Origin: Entrophospora sp. SA101
Taxonomy: Eukaryota; Glomeromycota; Glomeromycetes; Entrophosporales; Entrophosporaceae
Direction: 5' to 3'
Length of the DNA stretch: 24,271 bases
NCBI GenBank assembly: GCA_958430865.1
Contig: CAUDNR010001757.1
Span: 1,388 to 25,658, forward strand
Position numbers and translations under genes: made by a program. The notes under the pieces were generated by a model. The model saw only the letters and a program-made list of their open reading frames with translations. It was not told the DNA's origin and ran no database searches. The first letter of the stretch is position 1, and each line of letters opens with the position of its first letter. This document shows, one piece after another, positions 1-19,422 of this stretch.

Positions 1-1257
1 ATTCATGCGGAATTAGGAAAAAAAAGGAGTGAATTAACTAAAATTAGTCTTCAAAAAGCTGATAAAAAACAAAAACTAATCCAAATCCAAAATCAAATTA
101 AGGATTTTGAAACTAATCAAATTAATCACTCACGAACTCAACTTAAAAATTTAGGAGATAAATTAACTAATCTGAGTGATGAAAATATTATCACTTATCA
201 AGAAATGATTGCGATTAGAACTTTGATTTACTTCTTAACTGATTTAGAAAATGAAGGCAAACTAGAAACTCTCCTTACAACTACTGAAAGAGGATATCTC
301 ACTAAAGTAGAACAGTTAGAGGCTATTCGAAATGCTAAACTTCCTACTTATAGCACTTGACAAGGTTTAGGTACTAGTTTTCAAGAAAGACTAAGTAATT
401 GAGAAAAAAAAGAAGGAAGAAACTTAACCGGAAAAAGCATTACAACTTATTTTAATTTACTAAAAAGTGAGTTAAATAATGCTAAGCAAACCATTGGTCT
501 TAGTCCAGAAGAAGAAGTAGAATTATTGGCAATTAACAATTACTTAACTAATCCAGAATTAAGAAGTGAAAATCTTCGTTCAGTTTTCAAAATTGATGCA
601 GATATTACTACTTCTTTAGTAGAACAATGAAAGAATTTTGGAGACCAAAAACTATTTAAAAAAGATGAATTAGAACTAAAAAAGATTGGAAATATCGTGA
701 ATGATTTGGATGATTTTGAGCCTTTCTTTACTCATCTCAAAGATTATTTAAAAGGTAAAAAAGGAATTTCTGAATTTCCTGCTGACACGACTGCTGAACA
801 AGATAAATTAAACTGATTCTTTACTTTACCTCCTCAACATGTAATTGGAGCAGCCGCTGATTATCACATCAAAACTGACAATGCTAAGAAAGCAGAAATT
901 GAAACTGAAATGAGAGCTGACCGAAATCCAGAAGATAAAACTAAAAGTTTAGATTGGAACATTTATGGAGATGGAACTAGTCCAACTGAAGCGGGAACTA
1001 AAAAATACTATTTCGAAAAACTCGGAGGAATTAACCATAGTTATGCTAAACAAAAAGCTACTGAAAGCCAACCTACTTCCAAAGAAGGCTTTTGAAGAAC
1101 TAATAATCCAGTGGCTTGGTTATCCTTTCTTGGTTTACTCTTGTTATTGGCAGGAACTATTTGAGCAATTCGCAAAAGAAAAACCCTTCTCCAATGATGA
1201 AATTCTCCTTCCGATTTAGAAGATGAATTGGATGATGATGATGATGATGATGATTAA
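1..1257 (+). CDS. Partial ORF readable only with TGA=Trp (Mollicutes code 4); tail-anchored protein of unknown function
   Basis: Seen: frame 1 is open from the window edge to TAA 1255-1257 (a second TAA follows), 418 codons, if TGA is Trp. In-frame TGA lie at 358, 400, 628, 814, 1093, 1162, 1195 and 1198; TGG occurs twice; TAA and TAG never. In the standard code the frame would be broken 8 times, yet the codons stay coherent: Lys/Glu/Leu/Asn-rich, predicted helical, probably coiled coil in the first 75 residues. The C-terminus has one hydrophobic helix after NNPVAW (SFLGLLLLLAGTIWAI), then basic RKRK and a run of eight Asp, so it looks like a membrane-anchored protein with a large N-terminal domain. 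The N-terminus is missing. Known: code 4 is used by Mollicutes, including the Mollicutes-related endobacteria of Glomeromycotina, and by fungal mitochondria. Inferred: endobacterial origin; the content does not look mitochondrial. I do not recognise the family. Confidence 0.85.
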
Positions 1258-1272
1258 TAATGATTTGATTGT

Positions 1273-1530
1273 TTATTCTGCCAGTCTTCTTTTCTTTCTT
1301 GGTTCATCATGAGCTGATGTTAAGGTTCGTTTATTGCTTATTATTTTTCTTTCTTCATGGTAAATTTCATAGGTAATCCTTTCTTTGTCTAAATATGTTT
1401 GCAAAGATTTGGTATCTGCTAATTTAAAAATGTAAGGAGCAATTTTTTCACCTTGTTCTTTTTTTAGTATACTTCTAATGGTGCTATAGTTCTTAGGTTC
1501 CATAGTAGACCTGATGTAAATGAGTTTCAT
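1273..1530 (-). CDS. Small basic hypothetical protein, convergent to the code-4 ORF
   Basis: An ATG-started 85-codon ORF ending in TAA, with no TGA or TAG inside. Its stop lies 12 bases beyond the second TAA of the code-4 ORF, so the two genes converge with almost no gap, a bacterial type of packing unlike the rest of the window. The product starts MKLIYIRSTMEP, is Lys/Arg/Glu rich, has no signal peptide or membrane helix, and ends with a basic KKRRLAE tail. Upstream is AT-rich with no clear Shine-Dalgarno motif. It contains no Trp, so it cannot test code usage. I infer that it belongs to the same presumed endobacterial segment. The function is unknown and a chance ORF is possible. Confidence 0.5.
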   Translation of the reverse strand: MKLIYIRSTMEPKNYSTIRSILKKEQGEKIAPYIFKLADTKSLQTYLDKERITYEIYHEERKIISNKRTLTSAHDEPRKKRRLAE

Positions 1531-1638: not shown

Positions 1639-1863
1639 CCCTGAAATTTTTGGGCAATACCAATGTTCACTTTGTCTGGTTTTGTTGCAGCATGTCCCAT
1701 ATTAAAAACATGTGTAACCAAATTTATAAGGGTTGTTACTAAAAATAGATTTATTGTCTGGAAGGTTGATTTTCCTAGTACCCCATATGTATATCTGATA
1801 CTGGTAAGATGCTGCAACAAAACCAGACAAAGTGAACATTGGTATTACCAAGAATTTCAGGGT
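1639..1863. repeat. 225-bp inverted-repeat element (MITE-like) with ~55-bp arms
   Basis: The left arm 1639-1693 and right arm 1809-1863 are inverted copies. The inner 38 bases, from AATACCAATGTTCAC to GTTGCAGCAT, are identical; the outer 17 differ at a few positions. A 115-bp loop without coding sense separates them. I see no convincing target-site duplication, so the class is open; a non-autonomous DNA transposon is the simplest reading. It lies about 100 bases to the right of the last presumed bacterial ORF. ORFs reading through it on both strands are by-products of the palindrome. Confidence 0.85.
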
Positions 1864-2790: not shown

Positions 2791-4095
2791 TCAATTGTTT
2801 GTTCTTCTAAAATCTCTAGATTTCATTCCTCCATTTTCATTCATAAATAAGAAAATGTTCCTTGTATTACGAGCTGCATTAACATCACGATTCTATTAAA
2901 ATAACAAAATAAGTATTAAAGAAACATTATATATTGAATTTCAAGGAAGAAGAAATAATATTTACCAGACAATCATATGTTCTTACATAGTCATATTGAC
3001 CAGAATTTTTGATGTACATGGAACATCTCATTACATAAAGAACATATTTTACTTGTTCTATAATCATCAACAGACCTTACTTGACACTTCTTCCTTAATT
3101 CCCATAACAATTGCTTCACAGGTCCTTGAAGCATGACCCTTTGAAGTGCTGGAAAAACCACTATTACCAAATGCTACTATGGTTCTTTTATTATTATTGA
3201 TGATTCGTTTACATATTTTGCCATATGCTTTTTGTTTATTAATGTAGGTATTTCACCTCATTCTAGACCATTTTCTTTCACCATAAAATTCAAGGAGAGT
3301 CTGTTTATATTGAAGAATGTAATGTTTATAATCATCAATCGATGATGAGCATGATGGCATTGGCATATCTAATTTTATAAAAATGAAGAAATTATTAATG
3401 TTAAAATAAGCTTTCGTTGTAGAAAATTCAAGAAATTCAATCTTTACAATACTCACTACTTAGAAAGTTTGAAATTATATCTATTGTTTTTAATCTAAGT
3501 TACTTTCTTATTCTAATTCTAGTAAATCCTGCTAATGAATACCATCCTTTGGTTGAGCATTTTTTGTAATTTTTTTTCTCATTACCATAAATAGCTACAA
3601 ATAAATACTTCCGACCTGGATCCAATCCAGCTACATGACCACCTTCACTAATATTCAAATGATAAAAGTTTTCATTTTCATCGAATCCATATGAATTTAT
3701 TTTTATATTTTCTTTTAATATCTCTTTTCTCAGATTTACATTAACAGTTGTCATTATACTGAAACCAAATCGCCTATGTGTTGTTGTTACTTTATCTATA
3801 TTAAATGCCATTCTCCACAATGTTCAAGATTTTCATTGAAATCATTTAGGCTTATCTTTCCTAACCCACAATAATTTGTTATAGAAAGCAAATTATAAAG
3901 AGCAGTTGAATCAATAAGGATGAATTTTTTCTGAAATTTTGAATGAGGTAGAATAGTGAACAGATGCAATCCTCTACCTCTTCTTCTTGTAAGCCTTCTA
4001 TCATTAGCATCTTTTTGATAATTTTTTTTCAAAAGTTTTAAGGATTTTCCAAAGTGATCGAAGATAATCCCACCAGGTTTGTTTGACATGTTCAT
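2791..4095 (-). pseudogene. Degenerate Fanzor/TnpB-like RuvC nuclease
   Basis: Reading the minus strand across several frames recovers, in the right order, the landmarks of the eukaryotic TnpB homologues called Fanzor. First come ATG 4095 and FTILPHSKF with AFNIDKVT near 3800. Then comes RuvC-I with its Asp in VAGLDPGRKYLFVAIYGNE (about 3650-3590), followed by CSTKGWYSLAGF and DMPMPSCSSS (3390-3350). VAFGNSGFSS follows (about 3180-3150), then VDDYRTSKICSLCNE with the first zinc-finger CxxC (about 3075-3040), and finally RuvC-III NRDVNAARNTRN after a GT-AG intron at 2965-2893, ending TGA 2793-2791. At least three frame changes break it (near 3810, about 3150-3120, about 3030), plus stops near 3200, so it is not functional as it stands. 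Where relatives usually show DEYRTS it has DDYRTS, a possible loss of a catalytic Glu. Known: Fanzors are RNA-guided DNA endonucleases carried by eukaryotic transposons. Element ends were not found. Confidence 0.82.
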
Positions 4096-8384: not shown

Positions 8385-9046
8385 GTGAATCAAACAACAC
8401 ATGAATTTATAACATGTAATGATAAATATTTTTGTGAAAGGACTATTCTCTCTTCTCGAAACGAAGATGTAGATTATATTAACCAAGAGATTCTGAATAT
8501 GTTTCCAGGAAATCAACATACCTATAATAGTGCTGACAACGTTGTAAATGAAGGAGTTGATAATAACAATATTTATCTCATGAATTCCTCAATTCACTTA
8601 CTTTCAGTGGAATTCCACTTGCAAAACTTAATCTTAAGGTTGGTGCTTCTTAGAAATCTTACTCCAAAACAAGGTCTTTGTAATGGTACTCGCTTGGCAA
8701 TCATCAATATGACTGATAATGTTATTGAAGCTCAAATACTATGTGGTGATCATTCTGGAGAATTAACATTTATACCGCGAATTACATTGACACCTTCAAC
8801 TTCTGAACTTCCATTGTTTTCAGAAGAAGACAGTTTCCTATTGATATTGCTTTTGCAATGACAATTAACAAGGCACAAGGACAATCAGTAAAACATGTTA
8901 GTTTAGATCTTCGAACACCAGTGTTCTCTCATGGACAACTTTATGTTGCTCTTTCATGTGGCACCTCTCCGCATAATATTAAAGTTCTTTTACCTCTTAA
9001 CGATATTAATACAACAACAAATGTGGTATACCTGGAAGTACTTTAG
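8385..9046 (+). pseudogene. C-terminal fragment of a Helitron/PIF1-type DNA helicase, frameshifted
   Basis: Two plus-strand frames together give the C-terminal third of a PIF1-family helicase as carried by Helitrons. Frame one has ERTILSSRNEDVDYIN, then NLTPKQGLCNGTRLAI. Frame two has [22 protein letters not shown], then [21 protein letters not shown], the helicase motif V/VI region; the usual Arg in ALSRGTS is Cys here. A one-base loss in a T run near 8818 separates the frames. A second lesion near 8600-8655 makes SGIPLAKLNLKVGA readable only in another frame. The nucleotide-binding Walker motifs and the HUH replication-initiator domain are absent, so this is a dead fragment. Downstream at about 9248-9275 the sequence CCGGCACGGGTATCCACTGG faintly recalls a Helitron 3' hairpin end, but I cannot confirm it. 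Confidence 0.9.
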
Positions 9047-10245: not shown

Positions 10246-11269
10246 TTGCTATTACTACATTTACTAATATTTAGATTTGAAACTTATTACGAAAATTGTT
10301 ACAATTTAATTAATTCTATTTTTGCAAAGGAATTTATTAAAATAAATTTCCCAAAAATAAGACTTGTTCCGTCCACAAGGTTTAAAATTTTTACAAACAA
10401 CTCTGGAAAAGAATTGACAGTAAAGGAAGCAATTAAAAATGACTTGGTAATTCCACCTTTGGAATGCATTAGAAAAATGATTGATCAAATAAATGATGAT
10501 ATTGAAAAAGAGAAAAACAAAGAGAAAAAAGAAGAAATCAAGTATTTATTAAAGTACATTCTTTTGGAATAACAAAATTTTGTGATTTGAACAAAATATC
10601 AAACTTGCATATGGCAATGTTGTTTCAATCTAATTTCATAAATTTAATCAACTGGATTGATAGTAATGTGAAGAGGTCAAATAGATTGAAAGAAAAATTA
10701 TTAAATGCTAATAATTATATATTAATTTAAGAGACAATTTAAATGTAACTATTTTAGATTTATGAACCTTGGAAAATCAGAATTACATAAATTACATGGT
10801 GATTGAATCAGTACTTAAAATATTTAAAGCATTCAAAGATGATGACAATGAAAATAATAATTTTATTTTGGCTCCAATATATTTATGCACTCATATAAAT
10901 GATGAAAAGTTTGATACTGCATATAATTTATTAGGCCATTTATCAGAAAACATTCAAAGTATTTATATAGTTATACACATAAACTATAATCACTGGGGAG
11001 TTATAAAATTAGATTTGAATACAAAGAAAATTTATTTTGGTGATTCTTTATTTTATGAAGCTCCAATTAATTTAATAACCAATATTAACAAATTATTTGA
11101 ATTTTATGGGGTCTCTTTTGAAGATGAAATTTATTACATTAGTGAAACTCCTCATCAATCTGGAACTTTAGGTTGTGGAATAACAATCTTAAATTATATT
11201 GAAAAAGAAATTGGAATAAGTAATAAATCATGGGATAGGAAAATATCTACTTATTTTAGACTTAGATAA
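10246..11269 (+). pseudogene. Ulp1-type cysteine protease (C48) of a Mutator-like element, damaged
   Basis: The frame 10769-11269 (166 codons, TTG-initiated, so not a true start) carries a SUMO-protease-like catalytic set: His in YNHWGVIKLD (residue 75), Asp in YFGDSL (92), Gln in PHQSG (130) and Cys in TLGCGI (136). The same frame extends upstream through NLRDNLNVTILDL, the usual entry motif of Ulp1 domains, but is cut by TGA at 10763-10765 where relatives would continue (perhaps CGA to TGA). Earlier pieces (10246-10572, KINFPKIRLVPSTRF to Lys/Glu-rich helix; about 10580-10729, NLINWIDSNVKRSNRLKEKL) probably belong to its N-terminal region in other frames. A FAR1-type transposase follows in the same direction. 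Known: plant KI-MULEs carry a Ulp1-like gene beside a Mutator transposase. The active-site residues survive although the reading frame does not. Confidence 0.8.
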
Positions 11270-17630: not shown

Positions 17631-19422
17631 ATGACTTATTACAATAGAGGTACTTTAAACCCGAGGAGTATCATTAAAAGTTTAGACGAATCTGGAATAC
17701 CAAAAGTTTCTGAAAATCCGCCTGTTTATCAATTGGGAGAAATGAGGCATGGTAAATATATTTATCTTTATGTTTATGTTTTAGCAAAAGATGGCAATAA
17801 TTATTATAATAAATGCGCACAATTTCCATCAGTTATACCTATTTAATTCATCCATTTATTCATCAATCATTAACTAATTAATTTATTTACTTTAGCTGAA
17901 AAATGTTTTTACATATTAAAAAGATATCGTTATTGGAATCCTGGTTATGTAGGTTTTGACACAGAGACAACAGTGTTCAGACAAAAAGATCGTCGGCTAG
18001 TTTCAATGATACAATTGGCAACGCGCGATTTCTGTTTTCTATTTCAAGTATATAGAATCACAGGAGGTCATTCCGACTACTTTCCAAGACAATTAAAGAA
18101 TTTTCTTTGTGATGGGAGAATATTAAAGGTCGGTGTTAATGCTACAGGCGATAGTAATTGGTTGAGAGATTCGTATGATTTCGAGTGCAACGGTTTGGTA
18201 GATTTGGAGAAAATGGCTCACAGGAAAGGATATTCAGCGAATTCGTTGTCAGAATTGACAAGGATGTTTGCTGATCCTGGCCTTGTGCTAGAAAAATCAA
18301 AAAAAAAACTTTTTAATTATAATTTTGATCATCAGTATTTGACTTCAGAGTTGATCATATACGCTTCGGCGGATGCCTTTGCTGGATTTCAGATTTATGA
18401 GAATTTGTTAAAAGATAATTTGAACGAGGAATATTTAAATTACGAAAAGTTCAATCCTAAATCAACGGAAGAAGAGGATGTTGAATGTTATGAACTTTTG
18501 AACAAGGAATTGATTAGAGGCGATGTAATGAATATTTTTATTTATTTGCATTGCTATTATGCTAAGTTGTTTATAACGTGAAAAATAAAATTTGTTTAAA
18601 TGGATTTACGATAATTTTTATTTATAGGAATATAGAAAACATGTTATAATACAAATACTCGAAAAGAGATATGACAGGTGGGCCAAAACCAAACCAAAAA
18701 CAGATGATCGATATCTTGCAGCCCTTGATGCATTTGACAGATTTATTGAAAATAAGTTGATTATCAAAGTAGATGAAAATGGCGATGAAGACGATAGGGA
18801 TAGCGAAACTGATGATTCTGAAGAATCAAATTTCTATGACGAAGATTATTCAAATAATAACAATAATAGTGGTAACAAAAAGAGGAACGAAAAAAAAACC
18901 AAGAAAAATAAAGTAACTGTGAATCGAAATATAAAATATAAACTCCCAGGAACTTCCATTTCAGATTTGTTTTCAAGTAGTTATTTTTTCGAATATTGTA
19001 ATGGAAAAGGATTAACACAAGAAGAATCTGATTTGTTAAAGAAAGTATGGAAATTCGTTTTATTAAAAGACATACATAAAGATTCACTAGCTCGTGTATA
19101 TATGAACAATAGTAAAAAACAATTAGCAGCGGCTGCTGCTGCTGCCGCTGCCGCTGCTTCTTCTTCCTCCTCTCCCTCTACCTCTACCGATTATCGTTAT
19201 CATCCAACAATAAACATGAAATCTATCAAAGGGACGATCGATTCAATGACACGCAAAGGTGTATTTGTTTATGGAGAAAAATACGGTTTTGTCATAATAA
19301 ATCAGATTTGGTTAAAAGATTTTGAAAAAAGTTATGAGAATTTTATTGAAAGTGAGAAAGCACTATCGGAAAGTTGTATTATTGTTGATGAGAATAATCA
19401 GCAGGAGAAAGATTCAGCCTAA
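17631..19422 (+). CDS. WRN-type 3'-5' exonuclease (DEDDy) with acidic/poly-Ala C-terminal extension, three exons
   Basis: Exons 17631-17751, 17896-18524 and 18628-19422; introns of 144 and 103 nt start GTAAAT and GTAATG and end TTTAG and TATAG. The sum is 1545 nt (514 aa), phases consistent. The exonuclease domain spans residues about 45-215: Exo I GFDTETT (Asp62, Glu64), LVSMIQLA, Exo II KVGVNATGDSNWL (Asp126), GLVDLEKMAH, and Exo III LIIYASADAFAGFQIYENL (Tyr196, Asp200). All DEDDy residues are present, so activity is plausible. No RecQ helicase domain is linked, so it resembles stand-alone WRN-exonuclease proteins. Residues 300-345 are acidic, then Asn- and Lys-rich (possible nuclear signal KKRNEKKTKKNK). 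Residues 417-427 are poly-Ala followed by poly-Ser. The last ~75 residues (GVFVYGEKYGFVIINQIWL) look folded but I do not recognise them. Likely role: DNA end processing or repair in the nucleus (inferred). Confidence 0.92.

Follow-up and report, generated by a model that had tools for sequence, protein, structure and literature searches.

A transposon family written in genetic code 4, probably of endobacterial origin, in DNA of the mycorrhizal fungus Entrophospora sp. SA101

The window analysed here is a stretch of 24,271 nucleotides from the arbuscular mycorrhizal (AM) fungus Entrophospora sp. SA101 (assembly GCA_958430865.1, contig CAUDNR010001757.1, here C1289, positions 1388-25658), and it opens with an open reading frame (ORF) in which TGA is read as tryptophan, as in genetic code 4. 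Searches of the assembly (101.3 Mb, 2,123 contigs) placed this frame in a repeated element and indicated that it is probably the 3' cargo gene of a DNA transposon of the inverted-repeat type. By sequence comparison, the element's genes, namely ORF1, ORF2 and the short ORFs A and B, read with TGA as tryptophan, their copies lie amid eukaryotic-type DNA in many contigs, and the constraint on their coding sequences acted under code 4. We consider it likely that this is a transposon family of endobacteria which has repeatedly entered fungal nuclei.

Positions 1-1257 of the plus strand are open for 418 codons under code 4, with eight TGA codons and no TAA or TAG before the closing TAA TAA; the other two plus-strand frames of the same stretch hold 27 and 34 TAA/TAG codons, and among 2,000 first-order Markov shuffles of it the longest code-4 open run was 217 codons (mean 89). 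The frame is truncated at its 5' end, the window beginning at C1289:1388 and the preceding positions 1-1387 consisting of N letters, and it constitutes the C-terminal 41% of a gene of about 1,000 codons, ORF2. Its TGA codons stand at W120, 134, 210, 272, 365, 388, 399 and 400. In P0010, a distant homologue of ORF2 (35% identity), the alignment places tryptophan at six of these eight sites (W710, 800, 955, 978, 989 and 990 in full-length ORF2 numbering), and the remaining two, as judged by eye, are tryptophan as well. These observations uphold what a sequence-only reading of the window had proposed, namely that TGA encodes tryptophan in this frame and that the frame is DNA of the Mollicutes type. 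A fungal gene with the TGA codons inside introns was ruled out, as their surroundings are conserved as protein and the sites align with tryptophan in relatives. The part of the window belonging to the element, together with a repeat just beyond it, comprises the following features:

1-1257, plus strand: C-terminal 418 codons of ORF2 (code 4, eight TGA), with a hydrophobic segment at codons 372-390 and an acidic tail
1114-1170, plus strand: predicted membrane-spanning segment AWLSFLGLLLLLAGTIWAI, mean Kyte-Doolittle value 2.1
1273-1530, minus strand: ORF3, 85 codons, with a counterpart at all 15 element right ends, shortened in loci L017 and L025
1639-1703, plus strand: right end of the element, ...ATGTTCACTTTGTCTGGTTTTGTTGCAGCATGYCCCATAT, where similarity between copies ends
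1663-1675, minus strand: 13-bp motif, the inverted counterpart of which, ACAAAGTGAACAT, immediately precedes ORF1 in most of the other copies whose sequence was read at that place
1809-1862, minus strand: the right-end repeat a second time, in inverted orientation (95% identity), either the start of a neighbouring element or a remnant resembling a miniature inverted-repeat transposable element (MITE)

Used as a query, the window frame gave at least 15 match rows, lying on 12 contigs with its own included, at 33-98% identity. ORF2 is complete in eight copies, which span 994-1,025 codons with 15-19 TGA and 2-5 TGG codons each; on the other four contigs the copy is interrupted by N letters, frameshifted or truncated. 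The 30 bases preceding its start are nearly invariant between copies. The named proteins that match the window frame come from Entrophospora sp. SA101, Entrophospora candida and Paraglomus occultum and are all gene models; one gene model, P0001, joins a piece with a PF04116 domain to a piece of ORF2. Neither NCBIfam (at E 0.01) nor Pfam (over the cut-off) yielded a match for ORF2, ORF A, ORF3 or P0010, and the predicted structure of ORF2 was set aside (mean predicted local distance difference test score, pLDDT, 54). Our guess is that the ORF2 product is anchored in a membrane and has its use in the endobacterium. The ORF2 copies look mosaic, that of C185 (L015) combining the N-terminus of the C2065 copy with the middle of the C1739 copy and a C-terminus closer to that of C1709.

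The element runs from a short left end through ORF1, ORF2 (or the short ORFs A and B) and the minus-strand ORF3 to the right end, and the length of its ORF2-type form, about 5.3 kb, was pieced together, with L016 supplying the left part and L010 the right. Of the ten ORF2-less loci read, eight have ORF A, or at least its beginning, in this position, and in five ORF B is present too; both ORFs contain in-frame TGA wherever they could be read through, and ORF A gives at least 140 match rows in the assembly. ORF3 has one TGA codon in five of its 15 right-end copies and none in the window copy. The left end is situated about 45 bp upstream of where ORF1 begins; the motif ACAAAGTGAACAT is exact in eight of the 11 loci with an ORF1 start, carries one or two changes in L027 and L023, and is absent in L028. 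At the right ends read the motif occurs in inverted orientation; for the outer part of the right end we saw no counterpart on the left. The right end was located in 15 loci (11 of the 12 with ORF2 and four of the ten without), and its repeat is present in high copy, with at least 41 match rows (40 of 1,300 candidates scored). The foreign unit at the start of the window ends at about 1703 rather than 1257 and includes the 85-codon minus-strand ORF. The proposal of one recent insertion made in the sequence-only reading did not survive, given a repeated element with a recurring right end, ORF2 on 12 contigs and ORF1 match rows on at least 123. ARAGORN detected no tRNA-Trp in the window or in ten element loci, one of which, L025, has a tRNA-Val, and this ruled out a suppressor tRNA carried by the element. 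We also noted that the two inverted right-end repeats at window positions 1639-1862, which lie 116 bases apart, have a MITE-like appearance.

Wherever the region upstream of ORF2 is readable it holds ORF1, a gene of about 588 codons with the DUF7869 domain (PF25273; 64.2 and 62.6 bits against a gathering cut-off of 26), for which the assembly has at least 153 match rows on at least 123 contigs (150 of 922 candidates scored). Its acidic residues D313, D392 and D434 are invariant across 53 aligned sequences and fall on the RNase H strands and helix of the structure model, in which residues from about 231 to 467 adopt a predicted RNase H-like catalytic fold of the integrase/mariner kind. This acidic triad and the predicted fold are those expected of an RNase H-like (DDE/D) transposase, which is the activity predicted for ORF1. 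The retroviral integrases and the Tc1/mariner transposases (Mos1, Metnase) share this fold with ORF1, which is set apart from them by an identity of 9-15% among the matches listed, by a third invariant acidic residue that is D rather than E, and by a different N-terminal part. TGA serves in ORF1 as a tryptophan codon, at conserved tryptophan sites. A comparison of ORF1 with viral contigs returned no relative.

Beyond the right end, the window contains the following:

1704-24271, no strand assigned: eukaryotic, presumably fungal nuclear flank, from domains over the Pfam cut-off
8385-9046, plus strand: pieces of a Pif1-like helicase (Pif1 2B), Pfam match over the cut-off
10769-11266, plus strand: Ulp1 protease, Pfam match over the cut-off
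17973-18596, plus strand: 3'-5' exonuclease, Pfam match over the cut-off

These eukaryotic-type domains beyond 1703 support the earlier view that the frame sits in fungal DNA. Element-bearing contigs likewise show kinase and exonuclease matches over the Pfam cut-off (SPOC is below it), and the ORF1-bearing contigs, at least 123 in number, together amount to at least 6.1 Mb. Given the eukaryotic domains and this total, the element-bearing contigs should not be endobacterial. The sequence-only reading had offered an assembly join of two genomes as its other explanation. Such a chimera or contamination, linking endobacterial with fungal contigs, would find a footing in the endobacterial contigs present in the assembly, in the N stretch that the window abuts, and in the chimeric assemblies of Mollicutes-related endobacteria (MRE) and Mucoromycota reported in passages of PMC11423566. 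Against it, the unit stops at the same bases in 15 loci, decayed copies exist, similar fungal gene models occur in five other genera, and the ORF1 rows spread over all those contigs and megabases. We rejected a join or contamination on account of the same right end recurring in many contigs and the decay of some copies, and regard it as very improbable.

The flanks beyond the right end mostly differ between copies, the exceptions being the pairs C1739/C185 and C1798/C313. In C1353 the right end interrupts an ORF of 487 codons, free of TGA and unnamed by Pfam. Over 3 kb the element is identical in C1398 and C1709, whose right flanks differ; on its left side the flank of C1398 falls outside the contig. 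For about 4 kb the right flanks of C1739 (L010) and C185 (L015) agree at 99.6-100% identity, apart from an indel of about 130 bases, and despite this common flank parts of their ORF2 are only 65-69% identical; the interiors of C1739 and C1838, which lie at different sites, are 98-100% identical except for one window at 92%. Either gene conversion or mis-assembly of repeats would suffice to produce these identity patterns. In the flank of the window itself, pieces at 2916-3871 on the minus strand resemble a Fanzor/TnpB-type nuclease, with the motifs GLDPGRKYLFVA and KICSLCNEMF that we take to be of that type; one piece tested had no Pfam match.

Under code 4, the pairwise ratio of nonsynonymous to synonymous rates (dN/dS) is 0.10-0.27 for ORF1 (13 sequences, partial ones included; the C1739 rows were excluded as an artefact of N letters) and 0.30-0.53 for ORF2 (27 pairs; C1398 and C1709 are identical). 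In a comparison of ORF1 at 20 loci, with those sharing an insertion site (C1798 and C313) counted separately, changes common to copies number 109 nonsynonymous to 212 synonymous (N/S), singletons 180/145 with five singleton stops, and the neutral ratio is 442/113. On the copies' own branches constraint is retained in L023 (8N/16S) and L025 (7N/15S) and nearly gone in L024 (20N/6S) and L021 (24N/9S). Purifying selection acted under code 4, apparently mostly before insertion; the pattern is what would be expected if copies were constrained in a source and decayed once they had arrived, many times over, and does not by itself fix where the source lies. The earlier suggestion that an undamaged frame means a very recent event holds for some copies, which are intact or identical (C1398, C1709), and fails for the many others that have decayed; with intact copies beside so many decayed ones, entry looks recurrent. 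The near-invariance of the 30 bases before ORF2 would also suit one old capture, in which a fungal transposon took up a bacterial gene cluster a single time and the cluster was thereafter copied passively in the nucleus. We find this highly unlikely, as the eight complete ORF2 remain open under code 4 despite up to about 0.7 nonsynonymous and more than one synonymous change per site, a simulation of passive drift yields dozens of stops, and ORF1 is itself in code 4. Simulated random change to 6.5% divergence gives about ten TAA/TAG codons in ORF2.

Candidatus Moeniiplasma glomeromycotorum, an MRE of a code 4 lineage, carries a DUF7869 gene, and its protein, P0048, found at least 122 matches in the assembly. 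Among the near-full-span rows, every one of the 23 with at least 55% identity contains TGA, and TAA and TAG are absent from 20 of these. Six further near-full-span rows at 42-52% have TAA or TAG plus TGA (C755, C1029, C1876, C1424, C106:25115 and C161:22679), and were assigned to decayed members of the same group, class I, because the same places match ORF1 at 63-88%. Of the remaining 20 rows, at 36-43%, 12 are free of stops, six contain one TAA and two contain one TGA; the fungus therefore has, in addition to the code-4 class I, a DUF7869 family in the standard code, class II. The DUF7869 proteins of Glomeromycotina and animals (for example P0036 of Rhizophagus) have the domain, the D-D-D positions and a similar length in common with ORF1; class I differs from such class II proteins in its use of TGA for tryptophan, its code-4 cargo and its grouping with the endobacterial homologue. 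In a tree of 32 rows (midpoint root, with a tool warning on long branches among distant rows), class I clusters with three rows, P0048 among them, in a clade (100/98) next to class II of Glomeromycotina.

A Gigaspora rosea model nests among the copies of this genome, and models of Ambispora, Geosiphon and Diversispora fall close together, a placement weakened by their gaps and presumably unlike the host tree. Among 18 class I-like gene models taken from Ambispora, Geosiphon, Gigaspora, Diversispora and Racocetra, 15 of the 16 that span the site have a gap over W314, a count to be read with the further gaps of these models in mind and without a random-gap comparison; tryptophan stands at W314 in all four class II models and in ten of 12 database rows of other origin. 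The gaps over Trp/TGA sites in public DUF7869 models of the five genera are probably false introns, and they suggest, indirectly, that class I copies exist in other AM fungi.

To account for these observations we infer that an MRE once acquired a DUF7869 transposon from its Glomeromycotina host, and that this would have been converted to code 4 and supplied with cargo within the MRE, where the element genes would have evolved; the code-4 elements would then have passed repeatedly into the nucleus. There class I copies would decay, or perhaps be moved in trans by the fungal standard-code DUF7869 transposase; they should be mute, given that in ORF1 a TGA codon directly follows the first catalytic Asp. 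Mitochondria of many fungi use code 4, and one could envisage instead an element that evolves in the nucleus, its UGA codons being read as tryptophan by a special tRNA or through mitochondrial translation. The many nuclear copies, the identical 3-kb stretch with different right flanks in C1398 and C1709, the constraint persisting on the terminal branches of L023 and L025, and the fact that no source copy was seen on known MRE contigs among the matches listed would all be compatible with such recoding. Yet 18 of the 20 class II rows lack TGA and long host-type ORFs in the flanks use TGG, so the nuclear code looks standard; moreover, the ARAGORN searches gave no tRNA-Trp, and own-branch constraint is relaxed in L024 and L021. 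We therefore judge recoding improbable. A mitochondrial code-4 homologue, an alternative named in the sequence-only reading, gained no support, although no search aimed at it was made.

Three distinct bacterial 16S genes occur in the assembly, on C1138 (L039), C293 (L040) and C923 (L041), and three SecA genes, each with in-frame TGA; several endobacteria are therefore present. A HIT-family gene adjoining one 16S reads TGA as tryptophan, the best two of its four relatives being from Spiroplasma at 40% identity; DnaA, as an MRE marker, was not found in the assembly. By eye, the 3' end of the C1138 16S gene lacks the anti-Shine-Dalgarno stretch that the C293 and C923 copies have.

Several points weigh against an endobacterial family with recurrent entry. 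The least favourable is that the matches listed for ORF1 and ORF2 include none on the known endobacterial contigs (C1138, C293, C923 and C1669), the MRE contigs being incompletely known. P0048, the one named Moeniiplasma homologue, is only 54% identical and stands beside rather than inside the nuclear family, and relatives of ORF1 were found in none of 60 Spiroplasma-family genomes and none of 320 genomes of the Spiroplasma order, sets whose MRE membership is unknown. The scenario also requires many constrained source lineages, and among 12 ORF1 copies that are nearly complete, all but two contain indels or TAA/TAG. As regards the element itself, the right end was seen in just four of the ten ORF2-less loci, no clear target-site duplication was apparent by eye in the flanks read, Foldseek alone with the ORF1 model gave no match at E<=0.001, and the mosaic identity blocks between copies are possibly an effect of repeat assembly.

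The high-copy right-end repeats, the identical stretches at different sites and the coexistence of the two classes would also accord with a loop in which the class II transposase mobilises class I elements within the nucleus and these pass back to the endobacteria as well, the family living in both genomes; no return copy was identified, and we think such a loop improbable. Another notion, which we hold to be unlikely, is a two-domain transposon, with expression and selection in the endosymbiont, mute code-4 copies kept and multiplied in the nucleus, where a standard-code relative would move them in trans, and return possible, the nucleus acting as reservoir and endobacteria that move horizontally as vehicle between fungal genera.

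Nuclear copies of organelle or endosymbiont DNA are familiar as nuclear mitochondrial DNA segments (NUMTs) and Wolbachia inserts. These likewise leave bacterial-code genes mute in the nucleus; the elements reported here differ from them in being discrete and many-copy, with a recurring end and a transposase-like gene of their own. Gene transfers from host to MRE, as well as chimeric assemblies, are described in parts of PMC10507103 and PMC11423566, the transfers including MGMT and PknD (PMC10507103). Those too are gene traffic between Glomeromycotina and MRE, as far as the sections concerned describe them, and involve single genes passing from fungus to bacterium, whereas here a transposon family apparently moved mainly from bacterium to nucleus. 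The word fragment 'transpos' does not occur in the main texts of either paper. Part of PMC5982333 states that, as of 2018, very few transfers from bacteria to AM fungi had been reported and that the donors of bacterial genes in Rhizophagus were not known MRE. In the open-licence literature, by titles and the beginnings of abstracts, we found no paper describing a fungal nuclear transposon family in code 4, and none on DUF7869.

The code-4 family may account for wrong gene models in fungal genomes, predictors seemingly placing introns over the TGA codons. More generally, the donor's genetic code acts as a built-in label of origin, as every in-frame TGA at a tryptophan site identifies DNA with a history of selection under code 4. 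If our reading is true, the rate, age and direction of transfer from symbiont to nucleus would become countable.
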